DNA from: a virus
Direction: 5' to 3' (one strand)
IMG/VR virus record: IMGVR_UViG_3300023174_000646
Location: 1 to 23,447 of that record
Length of the DNA: 23,447 nt
Shown in pieces: positions 3,957-6,741 of this stretch (position 1 is its first letter; each line of letters begins with the position of its first letter). Position numbers and translations under genes: made by a program. The notes beneath the pieces were generated by a model. The model was not told where the DNA came from. It saw only the letters and a program-made list of their open reading frames with translations, and made no database searches.

Positions 3957-4071
3957 CTTTTTTAGCCTTCATAAGCTTCCACACCCTTGGCTTAATGGTG
4001 GATTCGCTCTTTGGCCTGCTGGTCCCAGCCTTCTTTCTTGCATTGATGTTTGCGTATAGTCCTTGTTTCAT
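3931..4071 (-). CDS. Small basic KGLYANIN-type phage protein
   Basis: A 46-residue protein starting MKQGLYANINARKKAG and ending GGFEASKD. The opening M-K-x-GLYANI(N/H)A-(K/R) followed by a basic AGTSRPKSEST segment is, from memory, a recurrent signature of small uncharacterised proteins in many tailed phages. The function is unknown; the strong basic charge suggests nucleic-acid binding. It is the first gene of the leftward unit after the repeat region. No ribosome-binding site is visible, and a -10-like TATACT lies 6 nt before the ATG. Confidence 0.7.
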   Translation of the reverse strand: MKQGLYANINARKKAGTSRPKSESTIKPRVWKLMKAKKGGFEASKD

Positions 4072-4139: not shown

Positions 4140-4328
4140 ACTTACGCAAGATTTGCCTTGTCGCTTTCAACCCCACTACCGCAGAAAAGATTTTGAACTG
4201 CCGCAACAATACCGCAGAAATACCCCTATAAGGGGTATTTCTTGCGGTACTTGCGGTAGCGGGCAAATATCGAATTGTTGCGGTACCGCAGAAATAATTG
4301 TTGCGGTATGTCCATTTCTTGCGTAAGT
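4140..4328. repeat. TTGCGGTA repeat cluster flanked by a 12-bp inverted repeat: candidate replication origin
   Basis: TTGCGGTA occurs directly at 4242-4249, 4251-4258, 4278-4285 and 4301-4308, and as TACCGCA plus A or G in inverted form at 4177-4184, 4210-4217 and 4284-4291. The longer word ATTGTTGCGG occurs at 4275 and 4297 and inverted at 4201-4210. The whole cluster is bounded by ACTTACGCAAGA (4140-4151) and its exact reverse complement TCTTGCGTAAGT (4317-4328). A DnaA-box-like TTATCAACG (7 of 9) follows at 4348-4356. The cluster directly follows the primase-helicase gene. Iteron-like arrays beside a replication gene are typical of origins in plasmids and phages. An operator array or termination structure is the alternative. 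Confidence 0.6.
4211..4248. other. Long 16-bp hairpin within the repeat cluster
   Basis: ACCGCAGAAATACCCC (4211-4226) pairs with GGGGTATTTC (4232-4241) and, after one bulged T at 4242, TGCGGT (4243-4248). The loop is TATAA. The outer arms are two of the TTGCGGTA-type repeats. It could extrude as a cruciform, be a nicking or priming site, or end transcription from the primase-helicase operon. It lacks a T-run directly after the stem. Confidence 0.6.
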
Positions 4329-4358
4329 CGCATTTCTGCAAAAACCATTATCAACGAC

Positions 4359-6290
4359 TTATGAAAGATTTGTGATCTCCCAGCCTTCGCCAGACTTGCT
4401 TATTGTCCCGTCCTGTTTTGCGGCTGCGAATAGCTCCTGAGCCTTGCGTTTCGAGCAGGCAACCGAAGCCACAATATGCTCAATGCAGTCGTTATAGCCA
4501 TGTCCCTTTGGCCAGTCTGGGATAGCCTGTTCTATGGTTAGTTCTGGCCTTCCCCTTCCCTTGTTCTCAGGTCCATCAGACTCCTCCCACGCCATCCACT
4601 CCTCTGCGTGCTTGAGCCATACATGGGTTGCGTATTTGCTGGCATGCAGATCGGTGTCGCCCTGCGGCCAAGGAATAGCCGCTCTCCCCCCCCTCTTTGG
4701 GAAAGACAGCTTAAAATGCCCTTCCTTGACCGCCTGGAGGTACACCACAGCCCTTGCCCAGTTGGTAAGCTCACTTGACCCTATCCCAGCATAGGCAAGG
4801 TCATAAAGCACCTGTGACCCCTGCCCTTCCTTGGGTGGCTTAGGCGTGTGATGCATTACCATCCAAGTCACACCTGTCGCCACACTTATCGGGTTTAGGC
4901 AATGCCGAAGGAACATTGTCATGTTTTCCTGGGCAAGCGCATCCCCTCCCATAAAGGATAGGAGTGGGTCTATCCATGAAAGGTCAGGTCTATGGACACC
5001 TATAAGGGCAGCAGCCATCTTTGCGAACTCTTGCCCTGTCTTTGTCGAGTCCCTGACAATAATCACATTGGCAAGCATCAATGCGGACTGCTCTTCAGTT
5101 AGAGTTAACTTGGCCTTGAGGTGTCGAAGCACACCTTGAGCCATTTCAGCAACGTCACCAAGATCGTTCTCTGCTTGGATTAGCAGACTACGAAGCGGCT
5201 TCTTGGGCGTGATGCCAAGGAACGGCAAACCGATTGCCCAAGTCATCATGGCTTGTAGGCAGAGTGTGGACTTGCCAAGACCGGAGCCGCCGACCCAGAC
5301 GCAGCTTCCGCCCCTGCACAACCAGCGATTGCCAAGCAAGCAATCACCGTCCTCTTCAGCCTTGAACCCCAAGATGTCCGGCCAAGGCGTTTGCTGTGGC
5401 AGATTCATCGCCTCCATGTGCGCCTTCCACTCGCTCCAACTACTGCGCCCAGTGTTCGTTGCCAGCAACGCTTGGTGGGCATTGGCGAGTTTCCTTGGCG
5501 CGCCTGGGAGTCGGGATAGCCTGGATGCGTCCTTGTTCTTTGGATCAATGTCGAACTGCGCCATCTTGGAGTACAAGTAGGCAACCCGTTCTTGGTGTTC
5601 ATTGGAATCTTTGGCATCTACCTTGACCCAAGCATGGACTGACCTTGAGCCGGAATGGATAACCACTGAGCATGGAAGCTCAAGGGCAGTGATGATCGAC
5701 CATTGCTCCTCCATCGTTCCGCTATCAAACTCAATTAAGGCATGGCGAAAGCTGGTGATGTCGTCCGCCTTGCGGGATTCTCCGCATGGATTGATGCAGA
5801 CATAAGCACCAACATAGGAGTCTGGAAGTTCAACACCGGAGTGGAACTGCTTTAACCATTCCTCGCGTGTCTTGATCGTTCCCTTGCCTGATGGCCTTTC
5901 TGAATCGTCCTGGTGGACTGCCCCAACAATGCACACCCTGTCGCCTTCGTTGAATGCGGTTAGCAGGAATCGCCTGACATCATCTGCATGGTGGCTTGGC
6001 GTTGGGCATGGGGTCATCTCGATCTTGACAGGTTGCTGGATCTTGAATGGGTTGACACCTTGAGCTATCGGCTGCCTAGCTGACCGCCTATAAGCTGATC
6101 TAATAGCTGATTCTATTTCCCTTTCTTTGAGTCCTGAGGCTAGGGCTGAGTTGAAAAGCTTGTCGGTGGCTGTGGATTCATCCATTCCGGCATCCCTTAA
6201 CTGCTGGGCGGCCATGAATAGCTCCTCGTTGCGCTGCCCCTCATGTGCTCCGTTTGTGATGAATTGCTGCGTTCTTGCTGGTATTCTCAT
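4359..6290 (-). CDS. Primase-helicase (AEP-type primase plus RecA-like helicase)
   Basis: A 643-residue replication protein. The first ~90 residues are helical. An archaeo-eukaryotic-primase-like region follows: ALIEFD at about 184-189, then HSGSRSVHAWVKVDA at 212-226, in which the SGS-x-H pattern is typical of AEP active sites, and RLSRLPGAPR near 257-266. The C-terminal half is a RecA-fold ATPase like the RepA/AAA_25 group, with Walker A GGSGLGKST (334-342), an acidic strand LIQAEND (370-376), Walker B LSWIDPL (437-443) and HHTPKP near 480. The last ~80 residues look like a winged-helix tail. The enzyme should unwind DNA and lay down primers at phage forks. Its start overlaps the HNH gene by 50 nt. 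The repeat-rich origin candidate lies immediately downstream. Confidence 0.9.
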   Translation of the reverse strand: MRIPARTQQFITNGAHEGQRNEELFMAAQQLRDAGMDESTATDKLFNSALASGLKEREIESAIRSAYRRSARQPIAQGVNPFKIQQPVKIEMTPCPTPSHHADDVRRFLLTAFNEGDRVCIVGAVHQDDSERPSGKGTIKTREEWLKQFHSGVELPDSYVGAYVCINPCGESRKADDITSFRHALIEFDSGTMEEQWSIITALELPCSVVIHSGSRSVHAWVKVDAKDSNEHQERVAYLYSKMAQFDIDPKNKDASRLSRLPGAPRKLANAHQALLATNTGRSSWSEWKAHMEAMNLPQQTPWPDILGFKAEEDGDCLLGNRWLCRGGSCVWVGGSGLGKSTLCLQAMMTWAIGLPFLGITPKKPLRSLLIQAENDLGDVAEMAQGVLRHLKAKLTLTEEQSALMLANVIIVRDSTKTGQEFAKMAAALIGVHRPDLSWIDPLLSFMGGDALAQENMTMFLRHCLNPISVATGVTWMVMHHTPKPPKEGQGSQVLYDLAYAGIGSSELTNWARAVVYLQAVKEGHFKLSFPKRGGRAAIPWPQGDTDLHASKYATHVWLKHAEEWMAWEESDGPENKGRGRPELTIEQAIPDWPKGHGYNDCIEHIVASVACSKRKAQELFAAAKQDGTISKSGEGWEITNLS

Positions 6291-6741
6291 CTTTCCTTTC
6301 CCTGTGGCATTTGAAGCACACAGCAGTTAAATTTTTAAGTTCTGGTGTTCCGCCATCTCGGACGCTGACAATGTGATGGATTTCAAGTTCATCGGTTGAA
6401 CCGCACAGCGTGCATTTGTCCTTGCACCTTGCAAGCACCTTCTTGCGTACTGCCCACCAGGAATCCATCTGCTCATGCAAATCCTCCATCGTGGTCCCAT
6501 CATCATCTTTGCGTGTCACCCACCTTCTGACAACATTGTAGGTTTCGGATGATCTGGTGTATCCCTTGCGATACATATTTAGGAACACTTCCGCGCAGTC
6601 CATGACTCCGCGCATGTACGCACGCTCCATGTCCTCCTTGATAAACTCTGGGAATTTTATTGATTGAAGCTCCGCAAAACTGTGCGGGCTTGTCGGTGGC
6701 TCAACATGTCTAAACCACCGAATGATTTCTTCATCGGTCAT
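6241..6741 (-). CDS. HNH endonuclease
   Basis: A 166-residue protein with an HNH domain in its C-terminal half: WAVRKKVLARCKDKCTLCG, then LEIHHIV, GGTPELKNLTAVCFKCHRER. The CxxC pair and the second C-x-x-CH pair should bind a structural zinc; HH and the Asn and His downstream form the HNH core. The N-terminal 90 residues are helical and unlike a known DNA-binding module. HNH proteins in phages act as homing nucleases, packaging-linked nickases or host-DNA nucleases. The location between a GIY-YIG gene and the primase-helicase fits a homing or nicking role. It has a ribosome-binding site (AGAAAGGCAGG) 7 nt before the ATG. Confidence 0.88.
   Translation of the reverse strand: MTDEEIIRWFRHVEPPTSPHSFAELQSIKFPEFIKEDMERAYMRGVMDCAEVFLNMYRKGYTRSSETYNVVRRWVTRKDDDGTTMEDLHEQMDSWWAVRKKVLARCKDKCTLCGSTDELEIHHIVSVRDGGTPELKNLTAVCFKCHRERKDENTSKNAAIHHKRST

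Follow-up and report, generated by a model that had tools for sequence, protein, structure and literature searches.

An iteron and stem-loop cluster downstream of a phage primase-helicase gene as a probable replication origin

Introduction

Replication origins are hard to locate in phages known from metagenomes. The window, by which we mean the whole stretch of 23,447 nucleotides analysed here (IMG/VR virus record IMGVR_UViG_3300023174_000646), contains a dense cluster of short repeats next to a primase-helicase gene, and the initial annotation proposed that this cluster is an origin. Is it, and which protein would read it? Comparison with other phages strongly supports the proposal, as the repeats (iterons) are replaced as a set along with the adjacent C-terminal part of the primase-helicase, a predicted DNA-binding domain. 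We put the probability that the cluster is the phage replication origin, read by its own primase-helicase, at roughly 0.88. Here, the initiator gene would point to the origin. All records searched are fragments or unclosed contigs.

Results

Layout of the cluster

We identified two opposed iteron arrays around a central hairpin, with minus-strand copies on the left, plus-strand copies on the right and one extra opposed copy at 4284. The features of the locus are as follows.

4140..4151, unstranded: outer site ACTTACGCAAGA, near-palindrome CTTRCGYAAG
4177..4184, minus strand: iteron, left array (TACCGCAG on the plus strand)
4200..4207, minus strand: degenerate iteron, left array (GCCGCAAC on the plus strand); a TGCGGC copy in relatives
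4210..4217, minus strand: iteron, left array, running into the hairpin
4216..4242, unstranded: central hairpin AGAAATACCCCT-ATA-AGGGGTATTTCT, perfect 12-bp stem and 3-nt loop
4242..4249, plus strand: iteron TTGCGGTA, right array, running out of the hairpin
4251..4258, plus strand: iteron TTGCGGTA, right array
4278..4285, plus strand: iteron TTGCGGTA, right array
4284..4291, minus strand: iteron overlapping the one at 4278..4285, giving the palindrome GCGGTACCGC
4301..4308, plus strand: iteron TTGCGGTA, right array
4317..4328, unstranded: outer site TCTTGCGTAAGT, near-palindrome CTTRCGYAAG
4349..4361, plus strand: sequence fitting the IHF consensus without mismatch (TATCAACGACTTA), across the primase stop codon
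4359..6290, minus strand: primase-helicase gene (643 aa) with PriCT_1, an AEP-like primase region, a RecA-like AAA_25 helicase and a predicted C-terminal winged helix; proposed initiator
4362..4565, minus strand: predicted winged-helix domain (residues 576-643); proposed iteron reader, from AlphaFold and from divergence that tracks the iteron sequence

The 7-bp core TGCGGTA (TACCGCA on the other strand) occurs seven times, at 4177, 4210, 4243, 4252, 4279, 4284 and 4302. The seven copies originally counted between 4177 and 4308 are thus correct for this core, but not for the 8-mer then given, TTGCGGTA, which is exact four times (4242, 4251, 4278 and 4301, all on the plus strand; 0.56 expected by chance in the window). 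Three of the seven cores have the form TACCGCAG, one mismatch from that 8-mer, and an eighth, degenerate copy at 4200 reads GCCGCAAC. On the two strands together the longer form ATTGTTGCGG has three copies, as had been reported (4201-4210 in reverse, 4274-4283 and 4297-4306), and the original coordinates of the repeats, the hairpin and the outer 12-bp inverted repeat held on re-check. When the 6,904 7-mers of the window are ranked by local repetition, TACCGCA is first, with 7 copies in 140 nt; the runner-up has 4 and is an overlapping word. Only two further copies of TACCGCA occur in the rest of the window.

The spacings of the iterons outward from the hairpin are 10 and 23 on the left and 9, 27 and 23 on the right, and the layout is near mirror-symmetric. 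The flanking iterons lengthen the hairpin stem across one bulge, and the top of the stem is CCCC/GGGG. A 199-nt segment folds far better than its shuffles (z = -7.4 as DNA, -7.3 as RNA). Relatives differ inside the cluster by single-base indels, and we therefore agree that it is non-coding. It lies directly downstream of the primase-helicase gene, about 30 bp past the stop codon, and in the same place in all relatives examined. Several short repeats clustered in non-coding DNA (seven cores in 140 nt) are what an iteron-type origin has.

GC skew, proposed earlier as a check, is not used here as independent evidence. The cumulative skew does turn near the cluster, but this turn is a maximum instead of a minimum and falls where the genes change strand, making it uninformative.

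The predicted initiator

The primase-helicase matches PF08708 (PriCT_1), PF13481 (AAA_25) and the DNA primase family PHROG 2597; the AEP-like match is weak. The full-length structure model was unusable (pLDDT 44). The C-terminal ~65 residues are predicted to form a winged helix: their AlphaFold model (pLDDT 83) has the order H-H-H-strand-strand, that is, three helices and a two-strand wing. Fold-library matches of this part are weak (best E 0.065), with several winged-helix DNA-binding proteins among them. Also on the minus strand, 6241-6741 encodes a small protein of the HNH type, which partly matches the IscB nuclease family at a score short of the family cut-off (E 4.6e-14).

Conservation in close and distant relatives

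The first set comprised 39 IMG/VR loci, and the cluster was scored in those extending past the primase-helicase gene. It is kept in 20/20 distinct close relatives (type A), with 5-7 cores in each, directly after the primase-helicase. By column, conservation is 98% in the iteron cores, 98% in the hairpin and 79% elsewhere in the cluster (cores versus other cluster columns, Mann-Whitney P = 5e-10). In 20-base blocks, much of the cluster is conserved at or above the level of the neighbouring coding sequence and clearly above the downstream flank. The main check asked for in the initial annotation, a conserved cluster beside diverging sequence, thus comes out in favour of the proposal, with all 20 relatives retaining the cluster and the divergence seen in the flank beyond it. 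Two long records, of 37.8 kb (G001) and 39.0 kb (G002), have exact TTGCGGTA in the cluster only.

More distant relatives, reached by profile and protein searches, have primase-helicases 43-46% identical over the catalytic part. Right after the primase stop codon they show an equivalent layout, with different iterons and a hairpin of their own.

Type B: iteron TAGTGCA/ACTGCAC, hairpin AGGCCC-TTTA-GGGCCT
Type C: iteron CCCTCAA, around a CAAGATCCCCC hairpin
Type C': iteron CCCCCAA
Type D (L149): iterons GATATCC/CCTATCA
Type E (L225, contig titled Planctomycetota MAG): iteron CTGCCAC, nine copies

Between types C and C', CCCTCAA becomes CCCCCAA in all four copies together. In the type E contig (JACCZE010000187.1), a primase-helicase of 40% identity is followed by the nine CTGCCAC repeats and a 9-bp hairpin; this contig may come from a prophage, or be phage DNA that was binned into the Planctomycetota MAG. 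Tyrosine integrase was identified in five type B/C records (G012-G016), and no match was obtained in four type A records (G000-G003), suggesting that the type A and type B/C records differ in lifestyle.

Six cultured phages, with primase-helicases 26-35% identical, also have clustered repeats in the gap that follows this gene. The maximum 7-mer counts in these gaps are 4-10, versus mostly 0-3 in controls from the same loci: AGGGACA is present ten times in Javan355, AATGAAA seven times in Bacillus phage BCJA1c and AATAGCT six times in EFC-1. Aster (5), Lugh (4) and Hayley (4) have lower counts, and the repeats of the last two are modest. Because cultured phages that infect Gram-positive bacteria have a similar layout, the question can be approached by experiment.

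Iterons follow the C-terminus of the primase-helicase

The iteron type tracks the C-terminal ~65 residues of the primase-helicase and not its catalytic part. We compared pairs of loci, scoring an iteron as shared when there was a common repeated 7-mer, and C-termini as similar at >=70% identity (that is, at least 70%) and as different below 50%. Among pairs >=95% identical in the catalytic part, the iteron is shared in 279/279 with similar C-termini versus 0/98 with different ones; at 85-95% identity the counts are 858/858 versus 0/442. As the pairs are non-independent and the C-terminus and iterons are neighbours, this co-variation is an association and no proof of binding.

Natural exchanges are visible at individual loci. 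Between the L177 and L200 proteins, identity is 99.3% in the catalytic part and 34% in the C-terminus; the DNA of the two loci is about 90% or more identical before the C-terminal region and about 35-45% through the C-terminus and origin. In L149 and L120 the downstream gene begins nearly alike and the cassette differs (by eye). At the sequence level, the C-terminal domain and the probable origin thus move between phages as one specificity cassette. Such swaps are ready-made matched and mismatched pairs for the study of origin recognition.

The co-variation could reflect linkage only, with one recombined segment holding the C-terminus and the cluster and no functional interaction between them. 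The two are adjacent, and the exchanges span both. We consider this unlikely, however, as the iteron copies change as a set even between closely related C-termini (types C and C'), the cluster is kept in every lineage, and the layout recurs in the cultured phages with much more divergent proteins. Even if true, linkage would give no argument against origin function.

Less probable still is a role in transcription control, in which a phage regulator would use the repeats as operators and act on the promoter that drives the next operon, one of small genes. Between the cluster and the next gene there is indeed a conserved -10 element resembling TATACT, and the C-terminal domain could double as a regulator. 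However, seven cores and a hairpin in two opposed arrays exceed what an operator needs, and a promoter scan returned nothing between the cluster and the next gene and one weak match at the primase end. In every type, moreover, the repeats change in step with the C-terminal part of a primase-helicase.

The central hairpin

A hairpin was identified in every type, as in pRN1-type origins, where a stem-loop lies 3' of the gene and structure is kept over sequence. Type-B relatives have six stem/loop forms, each perfectly paired along a 6-bp stem. Among ten distinct type-B hairpin sequences, both partners have changed in four of the base pairs: this is seen in 13 cells, against 5.1 in shuffles (reached in 0/500), and sliding the partner by 1-3 columns leaves none. 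These compensatory changes show that the paired structure is selected in type B, and they fit a hairpin or cruciform better than a site read by its sequence. The window-type hairpin is nearly invariant, so the structural argument is transferred to it from type B.

Could the primase transcript instead end in this hairpin, as a terminator or as part of a structured RNA? A strong hairpin soon past a stop codon, low folding energy and the type-B changes would fit, but there is no T-run after the hairpin and no terminator-like site was found. Rfam and tRNA searches gave no matches, and a terminator has no need for repeats that change along with a protein C-terminus; we regard this reading as very improbable. 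The hairpin pattern was also tried on its own as a family marker and was rejected: the non-relatives that it retrieves are mostly ordinary T-tailed terminators, and in most of the unrelated phages that share such a hairpin the T-run is present.

Outer sites and flanking sequence

The 12-bp inverted repeat reported at the two ends of the cluster is present, and its arms (4140-4151 and 4317-4328) are exact complements. Its interpretation as the ends of a single paired stem was not retained, because arm-arm complementarity falls in 8/20 close relatives, and in 7 of these 8 one outer site becomes a perfect palindrome (CTTACGTAAG or CTTGCGCAAG). This is weak evidence that the elements may be two separate near-palindromic protein sites, a better fit than one stem. 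A third, weaker CTTRCGYAAG near-palindrome lies at about 4358-4367, over the primase stop codon. The IHF-consensus sequence beside the cluster occurs in 18/20 close relatives and is absent from the other origin types; we treat it as a candidate site and a lead only. No DnaA boxes were found.

Downstream of the cluster is a small gene on the minus strand (start codon about 4071, beginning MKQGLYANINARKK). It has 78.7% DNA identity over 75 nt (3994-4068) with a small gene of Methylophilales phage MEP301, which sits beside head genes in that phage. The MEP301 match was set aside, as it falls in the small gene and outside the cluster.

That the cluster is a packaging (cos/pac) or integration (attP) site is the least probable reading: such sites are also non-coding, repeated and palindromic, but the co-variation partner here is a replication protein, the terminase small-subunit gene is about 3.5 kb away, and no tyrosine integrase match was obtained in the window and three close relatives (incomplete records).

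Discussion

The best reading of these comparisons is an iteron and stem-loop origin that would be recognised by the C-terminal domain of its own initiator and inherited as a swappable cassette. From the co-variation, we infer that the C-terminal winged helix binds both opposed iteron arrays beside its gene. SaPI Rep and P4 alpha suggest, by analogy, that the bound arrays gather hexamers of the RecA-like helicase, probably one for each array, and that the DNA is opened. The hairpin, extruded or exposed as single-stranded DNA, could be the structure on which the primase domain loads or primes, much as the ssi stem-loops of RSF1010. Host polymerase probably extends the primers, as no family-A polymerase was found in 11 (incomplete) records.

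The alpha protein and origin of satellite phage P4 offer one parallel: a single protein unites primase and helicase with a winged-helix domain at the C-terminus that binds the origin, and the origin has iterons. The helicase of P4 alpha is of the SF3 type. Its primase is of the TOPRIM type, a difference from the protein of the window (PMC4234260).

An origin just 3' of the initiator gene has several precedents (PMC4234260, PMC6092414, PMC7581432). In SaPI/PICI elements (Rep or Pri-Rep with ori), as here, the origin is directly 3' of the initiator-helicase gene and two iteron sets surround a central element. SaPI Rep reads its iterons via the C-terminal domain (PMC7581432, PMC6092414), and we propose the same for the phage protein. 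Unlike the central element of those islands, an AT-rich stretch, that of the phage cluster is a hairpin and is not AT-rich. The helicase is AAA_25 (RecA-like) rather than of the DUF927 or D5/Primase_Cterm type, and the system is found in phages rather than in islands.

The pRN1 origin has an essential stem-loop directly downstream of the initiator gene, and a similar arrangement is proposed for Bordetella phage BIP-1 (PMC4234260). In both, as here, one gene encodes primase, helicase and winged helix (C-terminal, and predicted in the phage protein of the window), the stem-loop is just past that gene, and the structure of the stem-loop is kept while its sequence varies. However, pRN1 is without iterons and has an SF3 helicase, whereas the cluster of the window has prominent iterons, a shorter hairpin and an AAA_25 helicase. 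The Streptococcus thermophilus Sfi21-type ori, or PER element (PMC6356513), is alike by description, as a non-coding phage origin within a replication module.

Like the RSF1010 oriV with RepA, RepB' and RepC (PMC4234260), the system combines a primase, iterons and a stem-loop with a helicase that may likewise be hexameric; RSF1010 has three separate proteins and the phage one polypeptide. AAA_25 is a RecA-like family related to or grouped with RepA (PMC8965321), whereas a PDB sequence search with the helicase gave no significant match, RepA included. Tentatively, and with the odds somewhat against it, the phage system may be a single-polypeptide counterpart of RSF1010: primase, RecA-like helicase and iteron reader would be fused and would act on an iteron origin with a covarying priming hairpin, and the reader and origin would be exchanged as a replication-specificity cassette, perhaps avoiding hijacking or interference by related replicons. 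By analogy, the system shares features with the SaPI/PICI and pRN1 origins, but with a RecA-like helicase.
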